Source of the DNA: Ignavibacteriales bacterium
Lineage (GTDB): Bacteria > Bacteroidota > Ignavibacteria > Ignavibacteriales > SURF-24
Direction: 5' to 3'
Assembly: GCA_003599415.1 (NCBI GenBank)
Contig: QZKB01000148.1
Span: 62,001 to 126,000, forward strand
Length of the DNA: 64,000 nt
The notes under the pieces are model-generated. The model saw only the letters and a list, made by a program, of their open reading frames with translations. It was not told the origin of the DNA and did not search any database. Position numbers and translations under genes: made by a program. Shown in pieces: positions 24,890 through 53,198 of this stretch; position 1 is the stretch's first letter; each line of letters starts with the position of its first letter.

Positions 24890-26515
24890 TTACCATAAAC
24901 TCCATAGACCGAAAATAACGATAAGAATAAAAACTGAAATTATAATGTTTGTTCTGTATCCGCCTAAAGCACCGGAGTGATTAAAATTATAACTGAATTC
25001 TCTAATGCTCTCCGGGAATAAATAAGTAATTTTTGTGACTTTCTGTTCTTCCTCGGTTTTTGTTAGTTTGCTTAATGCTAAAATCAGAACTGATGACAGA
25101 ACAAAAAGTATTATTGCAAAGTGCAAAAAGTTAATTTCTTTTATTGAGATTAAAATCGGGTTGGTTATCCACTCCATATTTACAAGCATTTCAAGTATAA
25201 ATCTTGATACACCAATTACTTCACCTATGATTAAAGTCCAGAAAGCAGCTTTGGCTGTTATTCTCTTGTTTAGCAGACCAAATAGAAAGACTGCTGTAAT
25301 TGGCGGGCTAATAAATCCCTGAAGACTCTGCAGGTATATATATACCTGTGATGTAATAAGCTTTACAAGAGGGACGCATAAAATGGCAACCACAACAATA
25401 ATTGTTGTAGATAATCTTCCAACAAGAACCAATTCTCTTTCTGATGCACCGGGATGTTTTGGTTTATAAATATCGTTAGTATATAAAGCGGCAGTACTGT
25501 TAAAAACGCTTGCAAGTGAAGACATTATTGCCGCCAATAATCCTGCAACAACAAACCCTTTTATTCCAACCGGAAGCAGGTTACTTGCAAGCAGCATCGG
25601 GTAAGCATCATCACCACTGATCTCAGGATATAACGACACCGCAATTAAACCTGGTAAAACTAAAATAAATATCGGGAGAATTTTTAATGAAGCTGCAAGG
25701 AGGGAGCCGCGGCGTGCATCGTTAATACTTTTTGCGTTAAGCATTCTCTGCACAATGTATTGATCGGTACACCAATACCAGAATGCTATTATCGGTGCTC
25801 CAAAAATAATTCCTGTCCATGGGTAATCAGGGTCTGATGCTGCTTTGAACATATTAAAGAAATGATCCGGCAGCTTTTCTTTTAATCCTGCTATTCCTCC
25901 AACTTCATTTAAACCGAATATTGTAAGTATGATTCCGCCTGCAATCATTAATATTGCCTGAACAGTATGTGTTCTAATAACAGCGGAGGCGCCGCCGATT
26001 ACTGAATATAAACCGGTAATCAGAATTAAAATGATAGCTGAAGTGTATATGTTGAATCCAAAAATCTTGTAGAATAATATTCCGCCGGCAAATAATGTAA
26101 CGGATATTTTAGTAAACAGGTAAATAACAATTGATGTGTAAGTAAAGAATTTTCTGCTTCTTGCATCAAATCTTTTCTCTAAAAATTCAGGCATTGTTAT
26201 AACACCCGATTTAAAATAAATAGGTGCAAGGAACCAACCAAGAAGAATTAAAATAAAGATTGCCATTAATTCTATTTGGCCGGCAGCTAATCCTCTTGAT
26301 GCACCTTCACCGGCAAGACCAATAAAATGTTCACTGGAAATATTTGTGGCAAAAATTGAAAAACCAACCGCAATCCAGCCCGCATTTCTGCCTGCTAAAA
26401 AGAAATCAGTTGAATTCCTGTCCCTCTTACGGGAATAGTTAAATCCGATGCTTAATATTACTATTAAGTAAACGAAGAGTATAAGACTGTCTAAAAGAGT
26501 AAATCCGTTGAACAC
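24890..26515 (-). CDS. Sodium:solute symporter (SSS family), probable sugar
   Basis: The protein is 541 aa with about 13-14 hydrophobic helices. It has SSS-family features: an N-terminal 'DFFLAGR..GW..VG.S..AT..S' block (about 37-60), 'GGA.AV..T...Q' near 175-190 and the conserved 'YWCTDQYIVQRML' segment (about 247-260), which is characteristic of the SglT/sodium-glucose branch. It should bring a monosaccharide into the cytoplasm with Na+. The start is a GTG at 26515 without a clear SD. Upstream lie a candidate sigma-54 promoter (26547-26563) and a double palindromic operator (26634-26673), so expression is probably under the NtrC-type regulator encoded nearby. Downstream is a glycan-binding protein. 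Confidence 0.9.
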   Translation of the reverse strand: MFNGFTLLDSLILFVYLIVILSIGFNYSRKRDRNSTDFFLAGRNAGWIAVGFSIFATNISSEHFIGLAGEGASRGLAAGQIELMAIFILILLGWFLAPIYFKSGVITMPEFLEKRFDARSRKFFTYTSIVIYLFTKISVTLFAGGILFYKIFGFNIYTSAIILILITGLYSVIGGASAVIRTHTVQAILMIAGGIILTIFGLNEVGGIAGLKEKLPDHFFNMFKAASDPDYPWTGIIFGAPIIAFWYWCTDQYIVQRMLNAKSINDARRGSLLAASLKILPIFILVLPGLIAVSLYPEISGDDAYPMLLASNLLPVGIKGFVVAGLLAAIMSSLASVFNSTAALYTNDIYKPKHPGASERELVLVGRLSTTIIVVVAILCVPLVKLITSQVYIYLQSLQGFISPPITAVFLFGLLNKRITAKAAFWTLIIGEVIGVSRFILEMLVNMEWITNPILISIKEINFLHFAIILFVLSSVLILALSKLTKTEEEQKVTKITYLFPESIREFSYNFNHSGALGGYRTNIIISVFILIVIFGLWSLW

Positions 26516-26546: not shown

Positions 26547-26563
26547 CTACACAAAAAGTGCCA
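26547..26563 (-). promoter_or_regulatory. Candidate sigma-54 promoter of the SSS gene
   Basis: The minus strand reads TGGCACTTTTTGTGTAG: a perfect -24 box TGGCAC, but a -12 box GTGTA matching the consensus TTGCA at only three of five bases. It lies 71 bp from the double palindrome upstream, the spacing expected between a sigma-54 activator site and its promoter. Confidence 0.45.
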
Positions 26564-26633: not shown

Positions 26634-26673
26634 CTTATTAAATTGATAAGTAAGTGCTTATTATTTTAATAAG
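26634..26673 (-). promoter_or_regulatory. Double palindromic operator (site A)
   Basis: Two 17-bp palindromes, CTTATTAAATTGATAAG (26634-26650) and CTTATTATTTTAATAAG (26657-26673), are separated by 6 bp, so their centres are 23 bp apart, near two DNA turns. The same pair occurs at 29280 and 33888. This is the probable enhancer site of the sigma-54 activator encoded at 29417-30877. Confidence 0.65.
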
Positions 26674-26732
26674 TGAAAAAATAGTGATAATACTATTCTG
26701 TTTAATTGCATAAAGGAAGGATATAAATGTAG

Positions 26733-26778
26733 AACCTTCAGGGTTTCTTGTTGAAATGCGTTGTGTACCCTGAAGGTT
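26733..26778 (-). terminator. Hairpin after the GH2 gene
   Basis: A perfect 12-bp stem (AACCTTCAGGGT / ACCCTGAAGGTT) with a 22-base loop lies 6 bp past the GH2 stop. The following minus-strand sequence is only moderately T-rich, so termination is likely but not certain. Confidence 0.55.
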
Positions 26779-26784
26779 TAAGAA

Positions 26785-29157
26785 TTACTTTATTAAAATC
26801 ATTTTTTTAGTCTGATTAAATTCCCCTGCTTCCATCTTATAGAAATAAATTCCCGATGACAGATGTTTAGCATTTCCGCCAGAGGTGGACCCACCTTCGG
26901 CGGAAAACTCAACTTCGTAATTACCTGCCGGTTTTTCTTCATTTACAAGTGTTGCAACTTCATTCCCAAGAATGTCATAAATCTTTAACGTTACATTTTG
27001 TAGAGACGGGGTATACCCCGTCTCAACGTGTGGAACTGCATATTTTATGGTTGTAACCGGGTTAAAAGGATTAGGATAGTTCTGTTCTAATTTAAATTCA
27101 GTTGGAATAACTTTGCTTTTGTCATTTTCTTCAACATCCGTAATTACACCGCCCATGTTAAAATATGGTGTATAAGATTCAATTAATTTTCTGCCAACGG
27201 GTTTTATTTTGTTCCTGTCCATACTGTAAAGGCCCATGCTTTGATAACCTTTCGGATGTCCATGTGAATACCAGTCAAATATACACCACCAGGTAACACC
27301 CATTAAGAACCCGCTTGGGTTATAATTGCCCCCACTGTTTATAGGAGCATAAATCTGGAAAGCCTTAAATGTTTCAGAAAAAACCGTAACTTGTTTGTTA
27401 GTATCAGAGTTTGTTTCGGTTGACCAGTAACCAAACTCTGTATCCAATACCGGTTTACCGGGTTGATTCACTTTAGCTCTTATTAAAAAATTATTTGTAC
27501 CGGCATAGTAAGTGCTACCATGAAAAACGCCGAAATACATTGTCCATCCTGCAACATCGCAGGCTTTCTGAGAATCATCTTCAGGACCAGGTCTGTCTGC
27601 AGCAGCAGATTGTGTTATCAATCGCCCATCCTTGATTTTTCCGTTTAATTCATTCCACATCTTCTCAATAAAAATTTTTCTGTTCGGAACATCAAGACAC
27701 TCGTTACACAGGCTCCACATAATTATGGAAGGTCTGTTCATATCTCTGTAAACCATTTCCTTAAACATCTGTTCGTGTATATGCCTGTCGTTATTTTGTA
27801 TTTGCCATGCAGTTTCTTCATCAAACCACCACACAGGAATTTCTTCAACAATTGCTATCCCCAACCTGTCTGCTAAAAGATAAGTATAAGGATGATTTGG
27901 ATAATGGGCCGTTCTAAGCATGTTTGCTTTTGTAGCTTTTACAAGTTCAAGATCAGAAAGTATTACTTCTTTAGGAATACTTCTTCCGTAAACAGGATGA
28001 TCTTCATGTCTTGCCACTCCGGTAAAGAAAACAACTTTATTGTTAAGGAGAACTTTATCCCCAGAGCGTTTTATTATGCGAATTCCGAATTGTGTGTAAA
28101 ATTCATCGGTTGTGTTTCCATCAACTGAAAGAGTAACTTTCATTATATAAAGATTTGGATCCTGCGGGGACCATAATTCCGGATTCTCAACTTTTATATT
28201 TGTCCGCCATACATTGAATGAATCACTTTCTACTGAAATACTTGTTTGTGTTGGGCCTGTGGTTTGTGCGGCATTACCAATTAAATCGTAACCTTTTTCT
28301 GCATCAAGATTGAGCGAATCAATATTGGCTTTGAAAATATTAATTGTTACATCAACATTTTTACTTGTGCTGTTTTTATTCAGAACTGTTATTGTTGTTT
28401 CAAGATTACCGGTTTCATCTTTTGTAATTACATCTGCTCTAACAACGGAAACAGGTTCGGCAATTTCAAGATAAACATCATGAATAATTCCCGCATAATT
28501 AAACCAGTCAACTTCATAGTAGGGAACAATATCTTTCCGTTTTCCCCATTCGGGATTATCAACTCTAACCGCTAAAATATTTTGTCCGTCTGATTTTAAT
28601 ATGCCGGAAACATCAAAAGCAAAAGGAGTATAACCACCTTCATGATAGCCTAAATACTGGTCGTTCAGCCACACATCAGCAACATAGTTAACAGAATAGA
28701 AAATCAGTTTGATGAATTTATCGTTAACGGAACTGCCAATATTAAATTTATATCTGTACCAAATACCATCCTCATAATATTCTGGTACTTTTGGAAAGGC
28801 ATACATTGTATTTTCAACACCGGGAATATTTTTATCTTCCCAGCCGCTGTCATTAAAATCAGACTTGTACCTGTTCTGCGCTTCCGCCAGCAATCCGTTC
28901 ATTATATTTGAATCTCTTTTGGATAATGAAAGACTGTCGTTAGCATTAAACCTTTGCTTTTTCCATGTTCCCCTTAAAGAAATTGTAGTTCTGTTTTGTT
29001 TTTCAAAAGATGGAACAGGCATGCCATTCTGAAAAGGGATATAAATTCCATTACCTGAATTTAAACCAAATGTTGCTTCCAAATCAGCAACCTGGGAGCG
29101 GATGTTACCTAAAGCGATTAAAATAAAAACAACAATAAGTAAACCTCTTATTCTCAT
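26785..29157 (-). CDS. Secreted GH2 glycosidase with T9SS sorting domain
   Basis: The protein is 790 aa. A signal peptide (1-21) is followed by the GH2 sugar-binding domain (about 57-235, 'GIWYRYKFNI', 'VNYVADVWLNDQYLGYHEGGYTPF'), an Ig-like domain (about 240-360) and a TIM barrel (about 362-690) with acid/base E486 ('WSLCNECLD') and nucleophile E574 ('LDTEFGYW'). The T9SS type A sorting domain fills the last ~95 residues. GH2 covers beta-galactosidase, beta-mannosidase and beta-glucuronidase; the sequence alone does not decide which. The sorting domain is interrupted by two in-frame palindromic DNA insertions ('ETGYTPSLQ' and 'GGSTSGGNA'). SD AGAGGG supports the ATG. A candidate sigma-54 promoter and a double palindromic operator lie upstream. 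Confidence 0.88.
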   Translation of the reverse strand: MRIRGLLIVVFILIALGNIRSQVADLEATFGLNSGNGIYIPFQNGMPVPSFEKQNRTTISLRGTWKKQRFNANDSLSLSKRDSNIMNGLLAEAQNRYKSDFNDSGWEDKNIPGVENTMYAFPKVPEYYEDGIWYRYKFNIGSSVNDKFIKLIFYSVNYVADVWLNDQYLGYHEGGYTPFAFDVSGILKSDGQNILAVRVDNPEWGKRKDIVPYYEVDWFNYAGIIHDVYLEIAEPVSVVRADVITKDETGNLETTITVLNKNSTSKNVDVTINIFKANIDSLNLDAEKGYDLIGNAAQTTGPTQTSISVESDSFNVWRTNIKVENPELWSPQDPNLYIMKVTLSVDGNTTDEFYTQFGIRIIKRSGDKVLLNNKVVFFTGVARHEDHPVYGRSIPKEVILSDLELVKATKANMLRTAHYPNHPYTYLLADRLGIAIVEEIPVWWFDEETAWQIQNNDRHIHEQMFKEMVYRDMNRPSIIMWSLCNECLDVPNRKIFIEKMWNELNGKIKDGRLITQSAAADRPGPEDDSQKACDVAGWTMYFGVFHGSTYYAGTNNFLIRAKVNQPGKPVLDTEFGYWSTETNSDTNKQVTVFSETFKAFQIYAPINSGGNYNPSGFLMGVTWWCIFDWYSHGHPKGYQSMGLYSMDRNKIKPVGRKLIESYTPYFNMGGVITDVEENDKSKVIPTEFKLEQNYPNPFNPVTTIKYAVPHVETGYTPSLQNVTLKIYDILGNEVATLVNEEKPAGNYEVEFSAEGGSTSGGNAKHLSSGIYFYKMEAGEFNQTKKMILIK
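26873..26906. repeat. In-frame palindromic insertion in the GH2 sorting domain (element 1)
   Basis: An imperfect palindrome whose arms are TTTCCGCC and GGCGGAAA at the ends and AGGTGG / CCACCT at the centre, with 2-base mismatched bulges. Within the gene it encodes roughly 'AEGGSTSGGNA', in a place where the sorting domain of neighbouring proteins goes straight from the 'F.A' strand to 'L.SGIYFY'. Confidence 0.65.
27003..27024. repeat. In-frame palindromic insertion in the GH2 sorting domain (element 2)
   Basis: A perfect 22-bp palindrome (GAGACGGGG, TATA, CCCCGTCTC). It encodes the core of 'ETGYTPSLQ', which interrupts the usual link between the first sorting-domain strand ('TTIKYAVP') and 'VTLKIYDILG'. 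It is distinctly richer in GC than the gene around it. Confidence 0.7.
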
Positions 29158-29195
29158 AAACCCTCTAAGTTTATTAATGGCAAATAGAAATTAAC

Positions 29196-29211
29196 GACAA
29201 TAATAATACCA
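29196..29211 (-). promoter_or_regulatory. Candidate sigma-54 promoter of the GH2 gene
   Basis: The minus strand reads TGGTATTATTATTGTC: TGG and TTG at sigma-54 spacing, with a weak overall match. It lies 69 bp downstream of operator site B and 39 bp before the GH2 start. Confidence 0.3.
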
Positions 29212-29279
29212 GAAGAGATACTCTAAAAATCAAGTTTTCCAATCCGGTTAAGTTTTAAAAGGTATAAAGTGAAGGCTCA

Positions 29280-29319
29280 ATTATTAAACTGATAAGCAAA
29301 TACTTATTAAAATAATAAG
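29280..29319 (-). promoter_or_regulatory. Double palindromic operator (site B)
   Basis: ATTATTAAACTGATAAG (29280-29296) and CTTATTAAAATAATAAG (29303-29319) are separated by 6 bp, the same layout as site A. It lies in the gap between the sigma-54 activator gene and the GH2 gene. Confidence 0.65.
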
Positions 29320-29416
29320 TAAGCAATATCATCGCTCCACTTGAAGTAAAAACATTTCCGGTTTAAGGAAAATTCCAAAGAAGAGTAAAAATAAAGTGGA
29401 ATAGATTCCCTATTGT

Positions 29417-30877
29417 TTATTTTAAGCCAAGTTCTTTCGCCATGCGATAATAGTTTGGGGGTGCAAGACCAAGTTTTTTAGCAGCTTCAGTATCGGAGGA
29501 TGAATTCTTCCTTACAAACAAGAAGTACTTTTCGCGTATCATCTTTTCCATTTGCTTTAACGGAAGTATTTCTCCGTTATCAGTAAATCTTATTCCGGGA
29601 AAGTTATAATCATCAATTGGGTCTGAGTTCGTTAGACCAAGCGTTCTGCTTACAATTTGCGCTGTAATAATTTTTTCATCGTTGAATAAAAATCTCTGAA
29701 CAACATTTATAAGTTCTCTTATATTTCCGGGCCAGTTATAGCTTAACAATATTTCCATTGCTCCAACATCTATCTGCGGCTTTTCACGCCCCATGTCAAT
29801 GCTCAGTTCATTAAGATAAAAGTTTACAAGTATTGGTATATCGGATTGTCTTTGTTTTAATGAAGGGACGGTTATTGGAACAACATTTAACCGGTAGTAA
29901 AGGTCTTCCCGGAATCTTTTAGCTTTCACTTCTTCTTCGATGTTCCTGTTTGTAGCCGCTATGATTCTTACATCTACCTTAATTTTTTCAGTCCGGCCGA
30001 TTTTTTCTATCTCACCATCCTGAATAACGCGTAACAGTTTTACCTGTGCAGATAAGGGTAGCTCAGTAATTTCATCTAAGAAAATTGTGCCGTTGTTTGC
30101 AATTTCAAATAGTCCCGGCTTTCTTTTATCTGCTCCGGTAAATGCTCCTTTCTCGTAACCGAATAATTCGCTTTCAACCAATTCATTCGGCAGGCTTCCG
30201 CAGTTTATCGGGATAAAGTTTTCAAATTTCCTGTTACTGTTATAATGAATATTATATGCAACCAGTTCTTTGCCTGTGCCCGACTCACCGTTAATAAGGA
30301 TAACAACATTTGACTGGGAATATTTCTTAATATCTTCTCTTAACCTTACAATAACCTGGGATTCACCAACTATTTTGCGTTGCTGCAAGACATCATGAAT
30401 GTTTTTTAATAGCTTTTGGTTGGATTTGTTTCTTTCGCGTTCAAGTTTTCCTTTTTCGTAAGCGTTAAAAATGCTAATTATAAAATCTGTTGGCTGGTAA
30501 ATAAACTCTTCAATATCCCCGGGATATTTTGTGCAATACCAAAAGGCGCCGGCTTTAAGAAGTTTATTTGCAAAATTAAAATCAGTGATATTTATAGTCA
30601 TTTTTGTAATAACTATTATTTGAATTGAAGGTCTTATTTCTTTAATCCTTTGGATAAGTTCTTCACCCATAAGACCACCGGCAATCTGAAAATCCATAAT
30701 CACTATGTCAAACAGATTATCATCATTATTCAGCAGCTCAATTGCATCTTTTCCATTGGATACAATTCTTGAAATTCCTATTATTTCGTTAAATGGAGCA
30801 AGCGTATTCCGGACACGTCTTACATCAAATTCTTCATCTTCTATTAATAAAATTTTAATAATTCCGGACTGATACAT
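29417..30877 (-). CDS. NtrC-family sigma-54-dependent response regulator
   Basis: The protein is 486 aa. The receiver domain (about 6-128) has E13-D14 and phosphoacceptor D62 ('IVIMDFQIAGG'). The AAA+ sigma-54 interaction domain (about 165-400) has Walker A G197-E-S-G-T-G-K, the sigma-54-contacting loop GAFTGA (244-249) and Walker B 'TIFLDEI' (264-270). A Fis-type HTH follows (about 440-486, 'DTEAAKKLGLAPPNYYRMAKELGLK'). Such proteins bind DNA 70-150 bp upstream and use ATP to open sigma-54 promoters. It is last in an operon after a solute-binding protein and a sensor kinase (14-bp gap). The three double-palindrome sites nearby are its likely targets, including its own operon. Confidence 0.94.
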   Translation of the reverse strand: MYQSGIIKILLIEDEEFDVRRVRNTLAPFNEIIGISRIVSNGKDAIELLNNDDNLFDIVIMDFQIAGGLMGEELIQRIKEIRPSIQIIVITKMTINITDFNFANKLLKAGAFWYCTKYPGDIEEFIYQPTDFIISIFNAYEKGKLERERNKSNQKLLKNIHDVLQQRKIVGESQVIVRLREDIKKYSQSNVVILINGESGTGKELVAYNIHYNSNRKFENFIPINCGSLPNELVESELFGYEKGAFTGADKRKPGLFEIANNGTIFLDEITELPLSAQVKLLRVIQDGEIEKIGRTEKIKVDVRIIAATNRNIEEEVKAKRFREDLYYRLNVVPITVPSLKQRQSDIPILVNFYLNELSIDMGREKPQIDVGAMEILLSYNWPGNIRELINVVQRFLFNDEKIITAQIVSRTLGLTNSDPIDDYNFPGIRFTDNGEILPLKQMEKMIREKYFLFVRKNSSSDTEAAKKLGLAPPNYYRMAKELGLK

Positions 30878-30891
30878 CAGCTTTAATCCTA

Positions 30892-32367
30892 CTAGTTCTT
30901 AATTTTGATTGTAAATGTACAACCTTTTTCCTCCATATTCCTAACACTTAATTCCCACCCGCAGCGTTTACTTATTTCGTATGCAATGTAGCAGCCGTAG
31001 CCTGTATTCTGATTTTCAGACTTTTTACTTGTTATATGTTCATAAAACAATTTTGGTAAGCCATCACTATCTTTTTCAAGCAGCGCCGGTAAAATACCTT
31101 TCCCGTTATCATTTATTTCTATTGTAGATATTTTTTCTTCGGGGAAAAACCTGGTCCGGATTAATATAGTAAGAAAGTTTTCACCGCCGTGTTCAATGCT
31201 GTTTTGAATAAGCGGCTCCATTATTTCCCATATTACAAATTCGTTTACCGGAACAATCGGTATTGATTCATCAAGGTCTAATTTTATTTCAAAAGCGTTG
31301 GACTTGCGTGATATTCTTAAGAATATATGGTCAACAATAAACTTAATTACTTCATTCAGGTTTGTTTTGAATAATGGATTCCGTATTGTCTGTATCGGCG
31401 GGTCAAACCATTTCATATCATATATAACCCTTGAAATAAAATTGGAGTACTTTGTTACCCGTTCTTTAATTTCCTTTGTGTTTTCCGGTGTAAGAGTTCG
31501 TAAATCTTCTTTTATAAATCCCATCACCTTTTCAGCCTTGTGATGAGTATGATAAATCCGTTTTGTAAAAATTAATTCTTTTTCGTAATTGAACTGCTTC
31601 TTAAGGTTTGTCTCATGTTCTTCGAATAACTGCCTCTGTGCTTCATCCCGCTCCTTTACAGTGTAAGATGAAATGAAATACATTGCGAGAAGTCCGAATA
31701 AAATAAGCGAAAGATATATTACCGAAGTTTCGTCAAAACTTGAACTGATCTGGTTAGTGATAAAAGAAAAATCGGGAGTGTTCTTCATATAAATAGCACC
31801 GCGGAATTCACCGCGCAGCACAAACGGAACGAAAGTATGGAAAGTTGCTTTCTCGGTTACGCTTGCAATATGCTCTTTGGAAATTAATTCTTCTCTTAAT
31901 TTTTTATAGATTGTCATAGCGTTTTTGTGCTGCGATTCTGTCTGAGGTGGGTTGTAGTTGCTGTCAAACAGAAACGAGTAAAGTACTTTGCCGTCATCAA
32001 TAGAATATATTTCTTTTCCCCTCTGTACGATAACGCAGATTTCTTCTATGTTATGCTGAAGTACCTGCTGGCTGAATATTATGTCGAATGACTGAATGAT
32101 CCTGTTCGCTTCAGCTTCATCTATCTCTTCCTTAGGATTTATTGTTTCAACAAGAAGTTCCAGCGATGTTGTTGTTAAGTTTGCAAGACGTTCGGCGGAA
32201 TCTCTCTGGTACCATTCCTGCGTTTTGCCAAGGAATCCGTTTATTGAAGATTTGTTTATAAATGACAGAACAAGTTGAAACGAGAACAGTACTATAAACA
32301 AGAGCGTCAGATGCTTGAATTCGAAATGATATTCTCTGAATTTTTCAAGGAATCTTTTTTTTAACAT
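30892..32367 (-). CDS. Membrane sensor histidine kinase paired with the sigma-54 regulator
   Basis: The protein is 491 aa. Transmembrane helices at about 20-37 and 216-235 enclose a periplasmic sensor of about 175 residues with no family I can name. A cytoplasmic linker (about 238-270) leads to an atypical phosphoacceptor region with H273/H275/H276 ('RIYHTHHKAEKVMGF') and a C-terminal HATPase_c domain (about 375-491) with N box 'IQNSIEHGG', G1 'DNGKG' and G2 'GYGCYIAYEI'. The gene sits between a solute-binding protein gene (11 bp upstream) and the NtrC-type regulator gene (14 bp downstream), so the three probably form one signalling chain. The exact phosphorylated histidine is uncertain because the H box does not match the usual form. 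Confidence 0.88.
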   Translation of the reverse strand: MLKKRFLEKFREYHFEFKHLTLLFIVLFSFQLVLSFINKSSINGFLGKTQEWYQRDSAERLANLTTTSLELLVETINPKEEIDEAEANRIIQSFDIIFSQQVLQHNIEEICVIVQRGKEIYSIDDGKVLYSFLFDSNYNPPQTESQHKNAMTIYKKLREELISKEHIASVTEKATFHTFVPFVLRGEFRGAIYMKNTPDFSFITNQISSSFDETSVIYLSLILFGLLAMYFISSYTVKERDEAQRQLFEEHETNLKKQFNYEKELIFTKRIYHTHHKAEKVMGFIKEDLRTLTPENTKEIKERVTKYSNFISRVIYDMKWFDPPIQTIRNPLFKTNLNEVIKFIVDHIFLRISRKSNAFEIKLDLDESIPIVPVNEFVIWEIMEPLIQNSIEHGGENFLTILIRTRFFPEEKISTIEINDNGKGILPALLEKDSDGLPKLFYEHITSKKSENQNTGYGCYIAYEISKRCGWELSVRNMEEKGCTFTIKIKN

Positions 32368-32378
32368 ATGGATATCAA

Positions 32379-33683
32379 TTATTTAATGGTAATTCGTTCA
32401 GCTTCTATTTTGCTGTTTGCTTTTATTAAGGCTTCTTTAACGGGCATTTTTTGTCTGAGTGCGAGATTAAGATAATATGAAAGTATATCAGAGATGGTTG
32501 TGTAGTTTTCAAGGAAAGGTCTGTGATAACCAAGCGTGAACATTTGTTTGAAATATTTCAATTCAGTATGCTTGCCTGTAAAAACAGAATCATCATAAAG
32601 CAGGTTATTAATAGGAAGGAAATTTCCTTCTTCATACAGAATTTTCTGTACATCCTTCTGCATAATGAAATTTAGGAAAGTAATTGCCTCCGGTACCTTT
32701 GTTGAATATTTTGAAATCATCAGGTTCCAGCCGCCAAACACAGACACCTTTTTTCCATCTTTAAAATGAGGCGGAGGTACCTTTCCGATTAAGTTTTTAT
32801 CAATCAGTCTGTTCTTGTCTGGAATCTTATCAAAACTTGACCAATCACGTAAAAAGATACCGTTCTTCTCTACATAATAATTGTTTGCAGAACTTTCTCT
32901 GAAGCGGACTACATCTTTTGGTGCCATACCATATTCGTTCACCATTGCAACAAGCAGTTTCAAACACTTTTCAGCTTCAGGAGAATCAATATAAAGTTTA
33001 TCTTTCTCCGCTATAGGCTTACCAAGACTTGCCATCATTTCCGCAAACAGGCAGATAAAGCCTTCGTAATCATCTCCCGGAAAAGTGTAGAAAGGATTCT
33101 GGGAATTCCCGGATTCTTTATGCAGTTTAATAAAGTCTTCCCAGGTAATAGATTCGTTTAACTTCTTTTGAATAATATTGTGATTGGGAAGAGTGGCTAA
33201 TATATCGCTGCGATAGTATAACATAGAAATATCTATATATAACGGGATAGCGACAAGAGAACCATTATAAATGCAGGATTGTAAGGCGTAACTTAATAAA
33301 TTTCTTCTGTTAACAGAATCTATAAACTTATCTAATGGAACACTCCACTTAGCAAAACGCGGTACCCAAATCTGGTCAACGGCAAAAATATCAATGCGGT
33401 CGCTGTTACTCCGCAAATATCTGGCAATCAATTCCTTCCTTTCATTAGTGCTGAACTTGTCAAACGGAGTGTTAATTGCTTCAACTTCAATTTGCCCGGC
33501 GTATTTTTTATTGAACAGGTCAATTATTTTCTGGTGAGCGCTCGAAATATTATCGACAAAATAAAGTTTTTTTACCGATGAGTTTTGCCTGTTGCTTAGC
33601 GGAGAGGAAACATATCCGATAAGTATAAATGCCGTAATGATAACTGTACTTATTATTACATAAAATATTTTTTCAAATTTCAT
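32379..33683 (-). CDS. Extracellular sugar-binding protein (ABC family 1 type), probably a sensor component
   Basis: The protein is 434 aa. An N-terminal hydrophobic helix (about 7-25) has no lipobox, so it is either an uncleaved anchor or a signal peptide. The rest looks like a family 1 solute-binding protein: 'HQKIIDLFNKKY', 'DIFAVDQIWVPRFAKW', 'LVAIPLYIDISMLYYRSDIL', 'VFGGWNLMISKYSTKVPEAITFLNFI'. Such proteins bind oligosaccharides for ABC importers, but no permease or ATPase gene is present in the window. Instead the gene leads an operon with a histidine kinase and a sigma-54 activator (11- and 14-bp gaps). The likely role is to present sugar to the kinase. A candidate sigma-54 promoter and a shared double palindrome lie upstream. 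Confidence 0.82.
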   Translation of the reverse strand: MKFEKIFYVIISTVIITAFILIGYVSSPLSNRQNSSVKKLYFVDNISSAHQKIIDLFNKKYAGQIEVEAINTPFDKFSTNERKELIARYLRSNSDRIDIFAVDQIWVPRFAKWSVPLDKFIDSVNRRNLLSYALQSCIYNGSLVAIPLYIDISMLYYRSDILATLPNHNIIQKKLNESITWEDFIKLHKESGNSQNPFYTFPGDDYEGFICLFAEMMASLGKPIAEKDKLYIDSPEAEKCLKLLVAMVNEYGMAPKDVVRFRESSANNYYVEKNGIFLRDWSSFDKIPDKNRLIDKNLIGKVPPPHFKDGKKVSVFGGWNLMISKYSTKVPEAITFLNFIMQKDVQKILYEEGNFLPINNLLYDDSVFTGKHTELKYFKQMFTLGYHRPFLENYTTISDILSYYLNLALRQKMPVKEALIKANSKIEAERITIK

Positions 33684-33811
33684 ATGAACAATTTTTTAAT
33701 TGCAATTTAAAATTACCGGGCTGAATTATTCATATCAGATGCAAATTCTTTTTTTCCCGATGCCGATAATATAGAAAAATTTTCTAATTGTCAGTTTAAA
33801 AAATTGAGACA

Positions 33812-33827
33812 GGCATTAAGATCTCCA
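33812..33827 (-). promoter_or_regulatory. Candidate sigma-54 promoter of the sensory operon
   Basis: The minus strand reads TGGAGATCTTAATGCC: GG and GC exactly 10 bases apart with TGG and ATGC boxes. It lies 61 bp from operator site C. The -24 box beyond TGG is a poor match. Confidence 0.35.
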
Positions 33828-33887
33828 AAATGTCTGGAAAAGGAAGAAGAAGATTAACTCCATAAATACTTTGATCAAAAAAAATTA

Positions 33888-33926
33888 CTTATCAATTTAA
33901 TAAGCATTGCTTATTAAAATAATAAT
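33888..33926. promoter_or_regulatory. Double palindromic operator (site C)
   Basis: CTTATCAATTTAATAAG (33888-33904) and CTTATTAAAATAATAAT (33910-33926) are separated by 5 bp. The reverse complement aligns with sites A and B. It lies midway between divergent genes and could serve both promoters. Confidence 0.65.
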
Positions 33927-33980: not shown

Positions 33981-33997
33981 TGGTTACTTACTTGCGG
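33981..33997 (+). promoter_or_regulatory. Candidate sigma-54 promoter of the GH125 operon
   Basis: TGGTTACTTACTTGCGG has a TGG -24 core and an exact TTGC -12 core with the GG-N10-GC spacing. It lies 55 bp downstream of operator site C. Transcription would begin near 34007, supporting the ATG at 34043 as the GH125 start. Confidence 0.55.
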
Positions 33998-34042
33998 GCA
34001 TAATATTTGAGTTTTATCCCGCTTAGTTCACAATGGATAATA

Positions 34043-35476
34043 ATGCCCAATAGAAGAGATTTTATCAAGACTTCAGCCCTTTTGTTTGCCGGTTTAAATT
34101 CCTTCGGATTCAGGATGCCCTCCTTTATTTCAATTAATCTTTTTGATAGTAAAAGACCGGGTATTACCGAACGAAATTTTATTAGTGATGCAATTGAGGC
34201 AAAAATTTCTTCTGTGAAAAATGATATTGCCGATGAAGAATTGGCCTGGATGTTTGAAAATTGTTTTCCAAATACTTTGGATACTACAGTTAAGTACCAG
34301 GTACTGAATGGAAAACCGGATACTTTTGTTATTACCGGCGATATAAATGCAATGTGGCTAAGAGACTCTTCCGCTCAGGTTTGGCCTTACCTGCGCCTTA
34401 TTAATGAAGATAAAAAGCTGAAAGATTTAATTGCGGGTGTAATAAATCGTCAGGCTAAATGTATTTTGATTGATCCATATGCAAATGCGTTTAATTTTAG
34501 CAACGAAGGCAGCGGCTGGGAAACTGATATAACTAAGATGAAACCGGAACTGCACGAACGTAAATGGGAAATCGATTCTCTTTGCTACCCGGTTCGTCTG
34601 GCACATGGTTACTGGAAACATACTTCCGATGCATCTTGCTTTGATTCCAACTGGCAAAACGCGATGAAGTTAGTTGTTAAAACCTTCAGGGAGCAGCAAA
34701 GAATAAATGATAACGGTCCTTATTCATTTATGAGGAATACAACAGTAGCTTATGATACTGTTCCTCTTCATGGATTTGGAAATTCAACAAAGAAGATCGG
34801 TTTGATTCATTCAATGTTCAGACCATCAGATGATGCGTGCATTTATCCGTATCTTATTCCTTCCAATTTTTTGGCGGCTGAATCTCTGAAACAACTTGCT
34901 GAAATATTCGCTAACGAAAATCTTGATAAAGAATTTGCTGAGGAATGCAGGGAGTTTTCCCAGAAGCTGCATGAGCTTATTAATAAATATGCTGTTGATG
35001 AACATTTATTTTACGGAAAGATATATGCGTTTGAGATAGATGGCTTCGGAAATAAACTGTTTATGGATGATGCGAACGTTCCAAATTTACTTTCACTCCC
35101 TTACCTTGGAGTAATATCATCTGAAGATGAAATTTATAAGAACACAAGAACTTTTGTTTTAAGCGATGATAATCCTTATTTCTATAAAGGTAAAGCTGCA
35201 GAAGGAATCGGGGGCCCGCACATTGGCCCGGATATGATATGGCCGCTGGGAATTATAATGCGTGCCTTAACAAGTAAAGATGATAAAGAAATTCTTTCAT
35301 GCTTAAAAACATTAAAAGCTACTCATGCCGGAACAGGGTTTATGCATGAGTCGTTTCATAAAGATAATCCTGAAAAGTTTACAAGAAAATGGTTTGTATG
35401 GGCAAACACTTTATTCGGTGAATTGATTATTAAAATTCATGATGAAAAACCTAATCTGCTTAAAAACAGATTTTAA
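34043..35476 (+). CDS. GH125 family exo-alpha-1,6-mannosidase-like protein
   Basis: 477 aa from the ATG at 34043. A start at the upstream TTG (34007) is rejected because that base is the predicted transcription start. The N-terminus 'MPNRRDFIKTSALLFAGL' is a twin-arginine signal, so the protein is probably exported folded to the periplasm. The body is a GH125 (formerly DUF1237) (alpha/alpha)6 barrel: 'GDINAMWLRDSSAQVWPYL', 'NEGSGWETD', 'KWEIDSLCYPVRLAHGYW', 'FRPSDDACIYPYLIPSNF', 'GIGGPHIGPDMIWPLGI', 'GFMHESFHKDNP'. Known members remove alpha-1,6-linked mannose from the non-reducing end. This is the only alpha-mannose enzyme recognised here, which sits oddly in a mostly beta-glucan locus. It leads an operon with an MFS transporter and a ROK kinase. 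Confidence 0.9.
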   Translation: MPNRRDFIKTSALLFAGLNSFGFRMPSFISINLFDSKRPGITERNFISDAIEAKISSVKNDIADEELAWMFENCFPNTLDTTVKYQVLNGKPDTFVITGDINAMWLRDSSAQVWPYLRLINEDKKLKDLIAGVINRQAKCILIDPYANAFNFSNEGSGWETDITKMKPELHERKWEIDSLCYPVRLAHGYWKHTSDASCFDSNWQNAMKLVVKTFREQQRINDNGPYSFMRNTTVAYDTVPLHGFGNSTKKIGLIHSMFRPSDDACIYPYLIPSNFLAAESLKQLAEIFANENLDKEFAEECREFSQKLHELINKYAVDEHLFYGKIYAFEIDGFGNKLFMDDANVPNLLSLPYLGVISSEDEIYKNTRTFVLSDDNPYFYKGKAAEGIGGPHIGPDMIWPLGIIMRALTSKDDKEILSCLKTLKATHAGTGFMHESFHKDNPEKFTRKWFVWANTLFGELIIKIHDEKPNLLKNRF

Positions 35477-48825: not shown

Positions 48826-49102
48826 ATTTGCTCCACGATAACTATTTATAAAGATAATTTATATGCTCTGTTCTTCTTTTGGAATACGACTTGAAAAATA
48901 AAAAAAATCACATCAAAATCCAGTTATCAAAATGAAAGAATCCACAAATCTTATTGATTTAATAATCTCCGCATTATCAGTATAATAATTCCTTAGGATT
49001 AGGCTGTTTAATTTTTTGAATTTTATTTATAAAATACAATCCGGTTTGAGGCATATCTTTTGTGCCTTTATAAGGTTGTATTTTTAAGTGAGGAGTGGTT
49101 GA

Positions 49103-50650
49103 ATGCGGATAATCATTTTTACAATTCTGCTGTTTACTTTTTGTGTAAACGATTTTGCCCAGTACGATGATACAGGCAAACGTGGAATTTATTTCGCGAA
49201 GAAAAATTACTCTCCTTTAACAATACCTGCTTTTGAAACTAGTAAAGATAAACTTCCTTCGCCTGTACTTGATGACAATAAAGAATATATTGAACTTTAC
49301 TGGAAAGCATGGGAATTAGCATTCAATCATTTCAAGCAGCCACCACAGGGCTCGCCATTTGTCTCCGATTTTATTGATGAGGCTTTCTCTCACTCGGTGT
49401 TTCAGTGGGATACAATTTTTATGATAATGTTTGCACGGTATGCACACTTCATTTTTCCTTCTATTCAATCCCTTGATAATTTTTATTGCCGCCAGTATGA
49501 GAATGGTTATATCTGCAGAGAAATTCAGGAGGAAGACGGGCAGGATTATGTTTATGAAGGAAGAGAACATACTGTTAATCCCCCATTATTTAGCTGGGCA
49601 GAACTTGAGAATGCAAAAGTAAGCGGGGATTTATCCCGAATTAAATTGGTCCTTCCGGTGTTAGAAAAATATGCCGAATGGCTTGAGAAATTCAGGAAGA
49701 AAGAAAACACAAAACATAATCTTTACTGGCAAACCGGATTAGGATCAGGGATGGATAATACACCGCGCAGTGGTTCAGCCTGGACGGATATGAGCTGTCA
49801 GATGGTTATGCTGTATAATGATATGGTTGTTATGAACGATGAACTTGGATTGAAAGAAAAAGCTGAACATTTCAGAATGATGGCAAAAAATATTTCTTCT
49901 AAAATAAATGAATTAATGTGGAATGAGGGAGATGGTTTGTATTATGATCTTGATGACAACGGTAACCAGGTTAAGTGTAAAACTATAGCTAGCTTCTGGC
50001 CGCTGATTGCAGGAATTGCAAACCAGCAGCAGGCGGAAAAATTATTTTATAATCTCAAAGACACAAAATCTTTCTGGCGTACAATTCCATTTCCTTCTCT
50101 CTCTGCAGATCATCCTTCATATAAACCCGATGGACAATACTGGCTTGGTAGCGTGTGGGCACCTACAAATGTTATGGTTTTGAAAGGTCTTCAGAAATAT
50201 GACCAGTTTGGCTTTAATGAATTTGCAACTCTTGCTGCAGAAACCTACCTGGACGGAATTTACAAAGTTTACAAAAAGACGGGAACAATCTGGGAAAATT
50301 ATTCGCCTGATGCGTATGCAAGAGGAATCTGGTCTAAACCGGATTTTGTTGGCTGGAGCGGTTGCGGCCCAATTCAATTATTAATTGAAAATGTAATAGG
50401 AATTAATGCCGACGGTTTAAATAATAAAGTTATCTGGAATGTAAGCAGAATAGACCGGCATGGCCTGGAACATCTTCATTTTGGAAATAATACTACTTCA
50501 TTCCTTTGTAATAAAAGGACGGACCTGAATAAGACAATTGAATTAACTATCGAATCAGATAATCCCTTTGAACTTACAGTTGTAAGAAGATTTGGTGAGA
50601 AGAAAGTGCTGAATGTAATTAAGGGAAAGAATATTTTTATTGTTGAATAA
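49103..50650 (+). CDS. Secreted GH37/GH63-like (alpha/alpha)6 glycosidase
   Basis: The protein is 515 aa with a signal peptide (1-19). The body shows trehalase/GH63-type landmarks: 'LYWKAWELAFNHF', 'VFQWDTIFMIMFARYAHFIFP', 'NPPLFSWAELE', 'WQTGLGSGMDNTPRSGSAWTDMSCQMV', 'SFWPLIAGIANQQQAE', 'DGQYWLGSVWAPTNVMVLKGL' and 'WENYSPDA.ARGIW'. Catalytic acids are probably the D in 'SGMDNTPR' and the E in 'WENYSPD'. This is the mannosylglycerate-hydrolase-like/GH63-like group (MGH1-type domain), which acts on alpha-linked gluco- or mannosides. SD GAGGAG is well placed. The GH3-PA14 gene follows 49 bp downstream. Confidence 0.8.
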   Translation: MRIIIFTILLFTFCVNDFAQYDDTGKRGIYFAKKNYSPLTIPAFETSKDKLPSPVLDDNKEYIELYWKAWELAFNHFKQPPQGSPFVSDFIDEAFSHSVFQWDTIFMIMFARYAHFIFPSIQSLDNFYCRQYENGYICREIQEEDGQDYVYEGREHTVNPPLFSWAELENAKVSGDLSRIKLVLPVLEKYAEWLEKFRKKENTKHNLYWQTGLGSGMDNTPRSGSAWTDMSCQMVMLYNDMVVMNDELGLKEKAEHFRMMAKNISSKINELMWNEGDGLYYDLDDNGNQVKCKTIASFWPLIAGIANQQQAEKLFYNLKDTKSFWRTIPFPSLSADHPSYKPDGQYWLGSVWAPTNVMVLKGLQKYDQFGFNEFATLAAETYLDGIYKVYKKTGTIWENYSPDAYARGIWSKPDFVGWSGCGPIQLLIENVIGINADGLNNKVIWNVSRIDRHGLEHLHFGNNTTSFLCNKRTDLNKTIELTIESDNPFELTVVRRFGEKKVLNVIKGKNIFIVE

Positions 50651-50699
50651 TTTACTTGTACAGTTATCAATTAATTTTTAATAAATAATGAGGACCACA

Positions 50700-53198
50700 A
50701 TGATTTTAAAATCTTACCTGACTTTACCGTTGGTTTCACTTATGTTTTTTTTAGGAGGTTTCTTTCCTGAAAAAGAAAATATTCCTCCATATAAAAATCC
50801 GTCTCTTTCAACTGATGAGAGAGTTGAGGATCTTCTTAAAAGAATGACAATTGAGGAAAAGATTGATATTCTTGGAGGAACCGGTTTTGCAACCAAGCCA
50901 AATGAAAGACTTGGTATTCCTGAACTTAGAATGAGTGACGGTCCGCTTGGCGTTAGATGGAATGAGAATACAGCGTTTCCATCAGGAATAATGTTAGCAT
51001 CAACATGGAACCCTGAGCTTGCTAAAAATGTAGGAGCGGCAATTGGAAGAGAAGTTAAAGCGCAGGATAGGCATGTTATACTTGGTCCTTGTGTTAATAT
51101 AGCACGCATTTCACAAGGCGGAAGAAATTTTGAAAGCTATGGCGAAGATCCTTCCCTCGCATCAAGAATGACTGTTGATTATATAAAAGGTGTTCAGAGT
51201 GAAGGAGTTGCAGCAACAGTAAAACATTTTGCATGTAACAACCAGGAACACGAGAGAATGTACGTTGATACAAAAGTTGATGAACGCACATTGAATGAAA
51301 TTTATTTGCCGGCATTTAAAGCCGCCGTTAAAGAATCTGATGTTCTTTGTGTTATGAACGCCTACAATAAAATAAATGGCCACTACGCGAGCGAGAATGA
51401 TTACCTTCTTATTGATAAATTAAAAAAGGAATGGGGATTTAACTGGCTTGTTATGTCTGACTGGGGTGCGGTTCACAGCTCAATTCCTACTGCAAACGGT
51501 GGAATGGACCTGGAAATGCCAACCGGTGAATATCTGAATAAAACTACTCTTATGGATGCAATTAAAAACGGAGTTGTTAAAGAATCAACTATTGATGAGA
51601 AGGTAAGAAGAATTCTACGCGTTCTTTTTAAAATGGGATTGTTTGAAAAACCAAGCCTGAAAGATGATTATGTTTCCGGTACAAAAGAAAATCTTGACGC
51701 CGCTTATAAAGCTGCACTTGAAGGAATAATCCTGCTTGAGAATAAAGATAATATTCTTCCGCTTGATTTTTCAAAGATTAACTCGGTTGCTGTAGTTGGA
51801 CCGAATGCGCATTTAGCAAGAACCGGAGGCGGTGGAAGTTCTTTGGTAGATCCTATTGAAGCTGCAAGTCCTTTGCAGATTATTAAAGAAAAATTCGGCG
51901 ACAAAGTTAAAATTAATTACGGGGCAGGAATTAAACTTGACGGTGAATCAAACCCGATTGAGCCCAAATATTTTTCCTTTAATGGAGAACAGGGACTTAA
52001 AGGAGAATACTTTGATAATAAAGAACTGAAAGGCACTCCCGCCTTTACAAGAATTGATAAACAAATTAATTTCGACTGGGGCGGCGATGGCCCTAAAGAA
52101 GGATTCAAATCAGAAAACTTTTCTGCAAGATGGACAGGTAAACTGAAAGCGGAAGAATCCGGTGAATTTATTCTTGATGTTACAAGCGATGACGGAGTTC
52201 GCTTGTATATAGATGGAAGTCTTGTTATTGATTTCTGGAGTGACCATGCTGCAGAAACAAGATCTTACAAAATGAAAATGACTGCGGGAAAAGAACACGA
52301 TATAAAACTAGAATACTATGAGAATGGCGGAAGCGCTTCATGTAAGTTTGGCTGGACACCTCCCGGCGAAGATCCGAAATTTGCAGCAATTGATGCCGCT
52401 AAAAATTCTGATGTTGTTCTGTTTTTTGCCGGGACATCAAACCAGTATGAATCTGAGGGATTTGACAGACCTGATATTAATTTGCCGAAGGATCAGGATA
52501 AACTAATTAAAGAATTAGCAGGCGTTAACAAGAATATTATTGTCGTCATCAATTCCGGCTCACCTGTTATTTTAGAAAACTGGATTGATGATGTTAAAGG
52601 TATTGTACAGGTTTGGTTTGGCGGAAGTGAAATGAGCAAAGCAACATTTGATGTATTGAGCGGCGCTTATAATCCATCCGGTAAACTTCCGGTTACATAT
52701 CCGAAAAGTTTAGAGGATTGCTCCGCTTACAAATTATATAAAGCGCAGGATAGCGTTACAGTTTACTCAGACGGAATTTATGTGGGCTACAGGCATTTTG
52801 AGAAAAATGATATTGAGCCAAGATACCCGTTCGGATATGGTTTATCTTACACTTCATTCAAATATTCCAACCTTAAACTTGAAAAGCAAAATGCATCTTC
52901 CGTTAAGGTAACATTTGATTTAACAAACACAGGCAAGGTTGAAGGGGCAGAAGCTGTGCAGGTTTATGTAGGAGAAGTTAATCCAAAGATTGACAGACCA
53001 GCAAAGGAATTAAAAGGATTCAGTAAATTAAATCTTAAACCGGGCGAGACAAAAAAGGTTGAGATTACATTAGACAAAGATTCATTCTCTTACTGGAACC
53101 CTGCAACAAAGAACTGGACAATGGATTCAAGTGATTTTGAAATCCTTGTCGGCAGTTCGTCTGCAGATATTAAACTGAAAGAAAAAATTGCCTTGTAG
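50700..53198 (+). CDS. GH3 beta-glucosidase with inserted PA14 domain
   Basis: 832 aa from the ATG at 50700, which has SD GAGGA five bases upstream; an ATG at 50688 overlaps that SD. A signal peptide is followed by the GH3 barrel (about 35-320) with 'VKHFACNNQE' and nucleophile D254 ('WLVMSDWGAVHS'). The C-terminal domain is interrupted at about 415-540 by a PA14 domain ('GEYFDNKELKG', 'FSARWTGKLKAEESGEFILDVTSDDGVRLYIDG'), and a fibronectin III-like domain ends the protein. The PA14-in-GH3 layout is that of beta-glucosidases acting on longer or branched substrates. It is the third GH3 of the window and of a different subgroup from the other two. Confidence 0.93.
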   Translation: MILKSYLTLPLVSLMFFLGGFFPEKENIPPYKNPSLSTDERVEDLLKRMTIEEKIDILGGTGFATKPNERLGIPELRMSDGPLGVRWNENTAFPSGIMLASTWNPELAKNVGAAIGREVKAQDRHVILGPCVNIARISQGGRNFESYGEDPSLASRMTVDYIKGVQSEGVAATVKHFACNNQEHERMYVDTKVDERTLNEIYLPAFKAAVKESDVLCVMNAYNKINGHYASENDYLLIDKLKKEWGFNWLVMSDWGAVHSSIPTANGGMDLEMPTGEYLNKTTLMDAIKNGVVKESTIDEKVRRILRVLFKMGLFEKPSLKDDYVSGTKENLDAAYKAALEGIILLENKDNILPLDFSKINSVAVVGPNAHLARTGGGGSSLVDPIEAASPLQIIKEKFGDKVKINYGAGIKLDGESNPIEPKYFSFNGEQGLKGEYFDNKELKGTPAFTRIDKQINFDWGGDGPKEGFKSENFSARWTGKLKAEESGEFILDVTSDDGVRLYIDGSLVIDFWSDHAAETRSYKMKMTAGKEHDIKLEYYENGGSASCKFGWTPPGEDPKFAAIDAAKNSDVVLFFAGTSNQYESEGFDRPDINLPKDQDKLIKELAGVNKNIIVVINSGSPVILENWIDDVKGIVQVWFGGSEMSKATFDVLSGAYNPSGKLPVTYPKSLEDCSAYKLYKAQDSVTVYSDGIYVGYRHFEKNDIEPRYPFGYGLSYTSFKYSNLKLEKQNASSVKVTFDLTNTGKVEGAEAVQVYVGEVNPKIDRPAKELKGFSKLNLKPGETKKVEITLDKDSFSYWNPATKNWTMDSSDFEILVGSSSADIKLKEKIAL

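Follow-up and report, generated by a model that had tools for sequence, protein, structure and literature searches.

Paired palindromes as probable upstream activating sequences of a sigma-54 sugar and glycan regulon in Ignavibacteriales

Paired AT-rich palindromes in an Ignavibacteriales genome very probably act as the upstream activating sequences (UAS) of a sigma-54 regulon that serves the uptake of sugars and the breakdown of glycans, run by a system made up of a sugar-binding protein (SBP), a sensor histidine kinase and an NtrC-type response regulator. This reading is built on sites, site spacings, promoter offsets, co-occurrence and gene content, all taken from sequence. The window, the whole stretch of 64,000 nucleotides that was analyzed, carries the three genes of this system together with transporter and glycosidase genes (Table 1). 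The first-pass annotation had described three double palindromes here; all three are present as described, while the set itself was incomplete, with a fourth pair missed in the window and a fifth double site located elsewhere in the same genome, 5' of a secreted GH5 gene. When the genome (5.03 Mb, 173 contigs, 88.5% complete) was scanned with up to three mismatches, the double pattern was found four times at 23-bp spacing and once at 22-bp spacing with 0 control matches, and the double sites are therefore not attributable to chance. The single palindrome TTATYAWWNTRATAA occurs in 14 places in this genome. Eight are parts of the 22/23-bp double sites, two are parts of double sites with 18-bp spacing on contig C8, three lie inside ORFs, and one is intergenic with no promoter match nearby.

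Table 1. Genes, double palindromes and candidate promoters in the window. Promoter offsets start where the TTAT...ATAA core ends; p values are from shuffles preserving base content only.
Feature	Position	Strand	Remarks
SSS family sodium:solute symporter gene (SSF)	24890..26515	-	PF00474
Sigma-54-type promoter TGGCACTTTTTGTGTA	26548..26563	-	SSS side, offset +72, p 0.010
Double palindrome CTTATTAAATTGATAAG / CTTATTATTTTAATAAG	26634-26673; pair at 26635..26672	none	centres 23 bp apart; candidate UAS for SSS symporter
GH2 gene (glycosidase bearing a T9SS sorting tail)	26785..29157	-	domain search
Sigma-54-type promoter TGGTATTATTATTGTC	29196..29211	-	GH2 side, offset +70, p 0.015
Double palindrome ATTATTAAACTGATAAG / CTTATTAAAATAATAAG	29280-29319; pair at 29281..29318	none	centres 23 bp apart; candidate UAS for GH2
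NtrC-type response regulator	29417..30877	-	REC, AAA+ with GAFTGA, HTH-like tail
Sensor histidine kinase	30892..32367	-	invariant ...IYHTHHKAEK... stretch
SBP_bac_1 sugar-binding protein	32379..33683	-	hydrophobic N-terminal stretch (by eye)
Weak sigma-54-like sequence TGGAGATCTTAATGCC	33812..33827	-	SBP side, offset +62, p 0.08; doubtful
Double palindrome CTTATCAATTTAATAAG / CTTATTAAAATAATAAT	33888-33926; pair at 33889..33925	none	centres 22 bp apart; candidate UAS between SBP operon and GH125
Sigma-54-type promoter GGGCATAATATTTGAG	33996..34011	+	GH125 side, best candidate, offset +71, p 0.005
GH125 gene, ORF as called	34007..35476	+	first of a run reaching 39902
Fourth double palindrome	48951-48988	none	centres 23 bp apart; 5' of GH63/trehalase-like gene
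Sigma-54-type promoter AGGCATATCTTTTGTG	49049..49064	+	GH63/trehalase-like side, offset +61
MGH1/GH63/trehalase-like glycosidase gene	49103..50650	+	domain search
GH3 gene	50688-53198	n/a	follows MGH1/GH63/trehalase-like gene

The run that begins with GH125 also encodes a GluP/FucP-like MFS transporter, a ROK glucokinase-like protein and a GH3 enzyme. No ABC permease was found among the window genes scanned for domains, and the SBP is presumed to be the sensor partner of the kinase. In its predicted structure, the kinase has a transmitter fold of the usual kind plus an alpha/beta domain outside the cytoplasm, for which a Cache-like fold would be a guess; at a pTM of 0.49, little weight is placed on this model. 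In the regulator, the receiver (PF00072) and the AAA+ domain (PF00158, E 1.2e-70) are clear. The phosphoacceptor Asp62 is invariant in 17 aligned regulators, as is the FTGA of the GAFTGA motif. Its C-terminus has no Pfam HTH match at 1e-3, and the conserved tail appears HTH-like by eye; among the best 25 NCBIfam models, none reaches its cut-off. The genome has one sigma-54 gene (a single PF04552 match, 199 bits). Together with the co-occurrence described below, the receiver and AAA+ domains, the GAFTGA motif and the sigma-54 gene make this regulator the likely binder of the sites, in agreement with the original proposal.

Across the order, 107 non-redundant strict double sites were collected from the fetched loci, with centre spacings of 21 bp (17), 22 bp (57) and 23 bp (33). 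None lies inside an ORF of at least 120 aa (60-bp margin) in DNA that is 89.5% coding, a figure of 0/107 that is biased towards true sites because loci were fetched for holding a kinase or a site. Some strict matches fall outside the fetched set (e.g., G045:C14, G152:C35:83241 and the g14 matches), and among the matches listed across genomes, three at 20-bp and one at 24-bp spacing are found outside the fetched loci. A strict sigma-54 motif is present at offsets 55-97 on 91/152 site sides that have a downstream gene and on 0/62 sides that do not, against a background of 0.0022 per 10 bp across 876 further upstream regions. Clustered by spacer, 72/84 offsets fall at 59-64 or 69-75, none at 65-68 and 12 at 84-95; tested against a smoothed null, this phasing has p 5e-5. 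That the sites are chance AT-rich palindromes or terminator-like hairpins of intergenic DNA, whose base composition they do share, is scarcely credible: the control in the window's own genome is empty, spacings of 20-24 bp give 201 matches in 164 genomes against 9 for the reversed pattern, and the eleven spacings from 25 to 35 bp give 30 matches, with 12 control matches. As judged from sequence, chance origin is already contradicted by the conservation of the sites and the phasing of their promoters.

The promoter form itself required revision. The GG-N10-GC pattern used in the first-pass annotation, taken as (T/C)GG-N10-GC, is found at offsets 55-97 on 15/130 non-SBP sides, and the putative promoters are better written GG(C/T)A(C/T)-N6-TG. 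Promoters resembling the SSS-side one precede SSF genes at +72 to +75 in several relatives, and AGGCATAATATTTGAC is the form in which the GH125-side promoter reappears in L042 (+72, ahead of an MFS gene) and L043 (+75, ahead of a GH125 gene). The GH125 promoter originally picked by eye, TGGTTACTTACTTGC, was dropped in favor of GGGCATAATATTTGAG, which recurs in relatives. Given the position of the latter, ATG 34043 is a likelier GH125 start than TTG 34007 (start codon read by eye). The 88 genes behind strict promoters comprise 36 SSF, 18 GH2, 17 MFS, 4 GH3, 4 GH5 and 2 GH125 genes, with one each of GH9, GH16, GH31, MGH1-like and ROK. At L055 and L056, SSF and GH2 genes are divergent, and each of the two has a separate double site lying 71-74 bp from the promoter of that gene. 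On 41/130 non-SBP sides, no strict promoter is found at 55-97; at a few g9 loci (L057, L058, L064, L069) it lies at 118-127 instead, and the 37 genes on these sides include several that are not sugar-related (triosephosphate isomerase, SelR, DNA methylase, kinases and receiver proteins).

The regulator's own operon stands apart. Four transcripts, including that of the regulator, had been assigned to the regulon; the sites hold up as candidate UAS for the SSS, GH2 and GH125 transcripts, whereas sigma-54 control of the SBP operon does not hold as a rule, the strict promoter being found on 2/22 SBP sides vs. 89/130 other sides. It is unlikely that the regulator also controls its operon from the site between SBP and GH125, whether as an activator or, with the site at the start of the SBP gene, as a repressor. 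A clean palindrome pair is found 5' of the SBP gene in 20/39 loci, window included, and the GG-N10-GC sequence at +62 in the window's own genome falls in a favored phase window; against this, SBP-side promoters are rare, and distances from site to SBP start are scattered from -6 to 256 bp (e.g., 30, 19, -6; ORF starts as called). The SBP sides at L042 and L043 hold nothing resembling TGGAGATCTTAATGCC. Autoregulation through sigma-54 was rejected as a general feature, leaving the weak +62 candidate in the window's own genome, and the SBP-kinase-regulator operon probably relies on another promoter type.

The link between sites and operon is seen in their distribution. Sites occur in 69/92 genomes with the kinase or operon and 11/72 without (p 7e-15), and at the genus level in 40/50 vs. 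2/18 (p 4e-7). Since site and operon are neighbors in the genome, their linked loss is to be expected; a within-genus permutation of the link gives p 5e-5. The strict site is absent from 23/92 kinase-bearing genomes, including two of one genus (G134, G135), where a relaxed scan near both kinases, with base-content shuffles as the null, found no sites. Another transcription factor, such as a paralogous regulator on contig C59 of the same genome or an unseen repressor, could in principle bind the sites, with the adjoining two-component system linked by position only. The C59 paralogue has a recognition helix identical to that of the window regulator at 8/11 residues and could also bind, and three genomes with no kinase match (G016, G019, G049) carry motif-like sites; in five of the 11 kinase-free genomes with sites (G044, G046-G048, G051), the sequence differs in the middle. 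This explanation is nevertheless improbable. Sites accompany orthologue-type kinases in 68/77 genomes but a lower-identity best kinase in 1/15 (the boundary, about 53% identity, was set by the analyst), sites linked to the paralogue are spaced differently, and sigma-54 promoters require an activator of the AAA+ class to which the window regulator belongs.

The C59 regulator belongs to a paralogous SBP-kinase-regulator clade (clade P). Half-sites are alike in both clades (TTATY...RATAA), and promoter offsets are equal. Spacing is 18-19 bp at 7/7 clade-P-linked sites in five loci (base-content shuffles), compared to 21-23 bp at 51/51 sites linked to clades A-D. The tally at 16-19 bp is 35 matches with 6 control matches; the count is 7/145 with five g9 matches that re-read a 22-bp site excluded, and 12/145 with them. 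The tree places 91 loci, window included, out of 140 kinase matches, two of which are pieces of a single gene, so more genomes with clade P may exist. Genes behind clade-P sites include GH130, CBM35, CE2 and SSF among the 10 scanned, a set that suggests mannan. Judging from its sites, the sister switch seems to work with similar palindromes at a narrower spacing. We tentatively propose, with slightly more doubt than confidence, that the same-genome paralogs are kept apart mainly by palindrome spacing, at 21-23 bp for the clade of the window together with neighboring clades and 18-19 bp for that of C59. If so, specificity would come from the side-by-side fit of two dimers more than from base reading, and a new specificity could arise after gene duplication with little change in the DNA-reading helix.

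For the regulon of the window, we infer binding, phosphorylation, looping and the sensing of a sugar as follows. The two-component switch probably senses sugar, presumably presented to the kinase by the SBP. The kinase would phosphorylate the regulator, two dimers of which would sit on the same DNA face, one per palindrome, with two helical turns between them. By way of a short DNA loop, they would then remodel the sigma-54 polymerase waiting at a promoter that begins some 80 or 91 bp away from the centre of the site. The direct targets would be the SSS symporter, GH2, the GH125 and GH63/trehalase-like operons and the distant GH5 gene. A mannoside as the common substrate, an idea taken from GH125, was discarded because GH125 lies directly behind only 2/88 promoters; the GluP-like MFS, ROK glucokinase-like, GH3, GH16 and GH30 genes may point rather to glucose or beta-glucan. 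With rules for operator and promoter in hand, sugar genes could be predicted in more than 60 relatives, and the two favored operator-promoter distances, one helical turn apart, would be a natural record of a constraint on short-range looping. In the genomes compared, the relatives of the window are represented almost wholly by MAGs. In a literature search that covered few subscription journals, no paper was found that describes a glycan regulon under sigma-54 in Ignavibacteria, paralogous enhancer-binding proteins with a spacing code, or polysaccharide sensing in these relatives.

Regulators such as NtrC, AtoC, ZraR and DctD combine REC, AAA+/GAFTGA and HTH domains and act by looping from a UAS 5' of -24/-12 promoters. 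The system described here shares the REC and AAA+/GAFTGA domains and predicted UAS 5' of -24/-12 promoters, the regulator tail appearing HTH-like by eye, and differs in its paired AT-rich TTAT-N7-ATAA palindromes, its two favored promoter distances and its glycan and sugar targets. In the Salmonella PgtC-PgtB-PgtA system, a solute-binding-like regulatory protein, a kinase and an NtrC-type regulator lie beside the transporter that they induce. An SBP, a kinase and an NtrC-type regulator are likewise found near uptake genes here; however, the regulator scores 92 bits against a PgtA equivalog cut-off of 650, and the ligand class and the multi-gene glycan regulon are different. In Bacteroidetes, hybrid two-component systems of polysaccharide utilization loci couple periplasmic glycan sensing to glycosidase and uptake genes, also the proposed targets of sugar sensing in the present case. 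Unlike in those systems, kinase and regulator are encoded by separate genes, a binding protein is added, and the output is sigma-54 rather than AraC-type.

NtrC-type sigma-54 regulators are covered in a review (PMC7408454). Related comparative work predicts enhancer-binding proteins, inverted-repeat UAS and promoters of sigma-54 regulons in Clostridiales; its sections drawn on here include regulons for sugar use, such as that of CelR for cellobiose (PMC6615313). In those sections, response regulators make up only 44/431 enhancer-binding proteins, UAS mostly stand 100-250 bp away from their promoters, and TGT-N10-12-ACA is common to 15 groups (PMC6615313), whereas the regulator here is of the two-component type, its sites lie 60-75 bp away and its motif is different. 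The sigma-54 regulome of Desulfovibrio vulgaris was likewise studied comparatively, with DVU2275 predicted to bind an AT-rich palindrome; in the part of the source used, no sugar targets are described, and the word "sugar" is found 0 times in its main text (PMC4641369), while sugar genes are the predicted targets of the paired palindromes described here.

The double palindrome, sought with centre spacings of 22 and 23 bp and up to three mismatches, occurs at five places in the 5.03-Mb genome, and reversed-pattern controls gave no matches in the same scan. The order-wide scan described below likewise puts the count for this genome at five. The three double palindromes of the first-pass annotation were all found where it had placed them, and its list is extended by two further sites. 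Single palindromes are present at 14 places in the genome, 8 of which fall within the five double sites.

Double sites and regulator operon in the genome (window positions unless a contig, C, is named; L, fetched locus)
Feature	Position	Strand	Context
First double site	26634-26673		
Second double site	29280-29319		
Third double site	33888-33926		
Fourth double site	48951-48988		precedes MGH1/GH63/trehalase-like gene and GH3 gene
Fifth double site	contig C55		115 bp upstream of GH5 gene with CBM6-type module and T9SS tail
18-19 bp double site	C8:1347 (L310, 1347-1379)		before protein with signal-like start
18-19 bp double site, one mismatch	C8:23292 (L311, about 3292-3324)		before MFS_2 sugar symporter
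18-19 bp double site	C12:62711 (L312, about 6711-6744)	minus	before CE2 esterase
Regulator	29417-30877	minus	
Kinase	30892-32367	minus	
SBP	32379-33683	minus	

The fetched loci hold 107 strict double sites once redundancy is removed, and none of these lies inside an ORF of at least 120 aa (60-bp margin), in DNA with a coding share of 89.5%. Centre spacings are 21 bp (17 sites), 22 bp (57) and 23 bp (33); spacings of 20 and 24 bp were permitted in this search and are represented by none of the 107. An order-wide scan gave 201 matches at spacings 20-24 vs 9 control matches, including, among the matches listed, three at 20 bp and one at 24 bp, while the eleven spacings from 25 to 35 pooled gave 30 vs 12 in controls.

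The regulator operon has the gene order SBP, kinase, regulator. The kinase is found at E 1e-60 or better in 92 of 164 genomes of the order; among 40 fetched kinase loci the regulator adjoins it in all 40 and the SBP lies upstream in 39, the contig ending at that point in the remaining one. Its relatives in named genomes (49 loci) come mostly from Ignavibacteria/Ignavibacteriales MAGs, many deposited as Bacteroidetes; Kryptoniota, Calditrichaeota and KSB1 contribute a small number. Kinase residues 267-284 form a nearly invariant stretch, FTKRIYHTHHKAEKVMGF, which has no Pfam HisKA match and is likely an unusual phosphoacceptor region.

Strict sites occur in 69 of the 92 genomes with the kinase vs 11 of the 72 without it (p 7e-15). 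Counted by genus, the figures are 40/50 vs 2/18 (p 4e-7), and permutation within 18 mixed genera gave p 5e-5. When kinases are divided at a cut-off of ~53% identity, which was our own choice, sites are present in 68 of 77 genomes with an orthologue-type kinase vs 1 of 15 having only lower-identity kinases. A neighbouring site and operon can, however, be lost jointly without any functional link. Strict sites are also missing from 23 genomes that do have the kinase, which counts against the link. These genomes include G134 and G135 (Melioribacter type), each with two SBP-kinase-regulator systems (L184, L185, L237, L238); relaxed scans around their kinases found no double site, and their operators may have diverged. 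A different paired sequence, TTATCTCTGAAATAAT...ATTATTTCTAAGATAA, is conserved among several species belonging to two genera (G044, G046-G048 and G051; e.g., G047:C1:472662-472699) and may be coding DNA.

A strict promoter motif, GG(C/T)A(C/T)-N6-TG, was sought on both sides of each site, with offsets counted from the end of the TTAT...ATAA core. It is present at 55-97 bp on 91 of 152 sides having a downstream gene and absent from bins 0-229 on the 62 sides without one; its background rate is 0.0022 per 10 bp in 876 other upstream regions. After spacer DNA was clustered at 62% identity, 84 cases were retained; 72 of their offsets fall within 59-64 or 69-75 and 12 within 84-95, and the range 65-68 is empty (phase test against a smoothed null, p 5e-5). 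The two main windows are one helical turn apart. A few g9 loci have the promoter at 118-127 rather than 55-97. In L055 (5112-5148 and 5201-5237) and L056 (3366-3402 and 3456-3492), two double sites separated by ~90 bp occupy the region from which an SSF symporter gene and a GH2 gene diverge, and the promoter of each gene has a double site of its own at a distance of 71-74 bp.

The genes behind 88 strict promoters comprise 36 SSF symporters, 18 GH2, 17 MFS, 4 GH3, 4 GH5 and 2 GH125, with one each of GH9, GH16, GH31, ROK and MGH1-like; these families account for up to 86 of the 88, on the assumption that each protein was counted once. A further 37 genes stand on the 41 non-SBP sides that lack a strict promoter, among them 7 GH5, 3 MFS, 2 GH3, 2 GH16, 2 GH30 and 1 SSF, as well as triosephosphate isomerase, SelR, DNA methylase, kinases and receiver proteins. 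In L200 (G063) and L204 (G064), double sites separate a triosephosphate isomerase gene from a divergent neighbor that has a strict promoter.

Autoregulation, in which the regulator would drive its own operon through sigma-54 as first annotated, is no rule of the system: the SBP side carries a strict promoter in 2 of 22 loci vs 89 of 130 other sides. With SBP starts taken as called, they lie anywhere from -6 to 256 bp from the site. Since the window has a weak GG-N10-GC at +62 on this side, weak sigma-54 activation of the SBP operon may occur in this species.

A paralogue on contig C59 of the same genome, with a kinase 51% identical, points to a sister system of other spacing. Promoter-anchored scans (offsets 56-78, any spacing from 15 to 32 allowed) found 51 sites in the 63 loci of kinase clades A-D, the window's clade and its neighbors, all 51 at 21-23. 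In clade P, that of the paralogue, 7 of 7 sites are at 18-19 (Fisher p 3e-9), although these stem from only five of 19 loci and are thus of limited independence; the other 14 loci gave no site. Clade E (9 loci) gave one site at 23 and one at 24, and shuffled loci gave none. Ten further loci, chosen for close-spaced matches, hold seven sites at 18-19 and one at 16. Sites of 16-19 bp occur in 13 of 19 genomes placed in clade P vs 7 of 145 others, or 12 of 145 if five re-read 22-bp sites are included. The 18-19 bp sites of the window's genome have sigma-54-type promoters at +63 to +73; the MFS_2 gene is divergent from a neighbor reading by eye as galT. A paired site of 31-bp spacing (about three turns) lies at G008:C63:11662-11707, on a contig that also carries a clade-P kinase.

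The boldest reading of these data, that palindrome spacing would insulate paralogous systems, has in our estimate a little under an even chance. The recognition helices, SNFYRMCKELG in C59 and PNYYRMAKELG in the window, have 8 of 11 residues in common, and clade B, with a spacing of 22-23, also has MCKELG. The two types have similar half-site letters that do not match throughout: position 5 is mostly T in the first (74%) but mostly C in the second (56%). Base reading may therefore play some part in telling them apart.

We infer regulator binding, phosphorylation, looping and an inducing sugar. The regulator combines a REC domain, an AAA+ domain carrying GAFTGA and an HTH-like tail, a single sigma-54 gene is present in the genome, and trehalose/maltose-binding proteins are nearest to the SBP by sequence among solved structures. 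Taken together, the sequence evidence is best read as a putative sigma-54 two-component regulon of the NtrC type that serves sugar uptake and glycan breakdown and whose paired operators appear to be kept at two favored distances.
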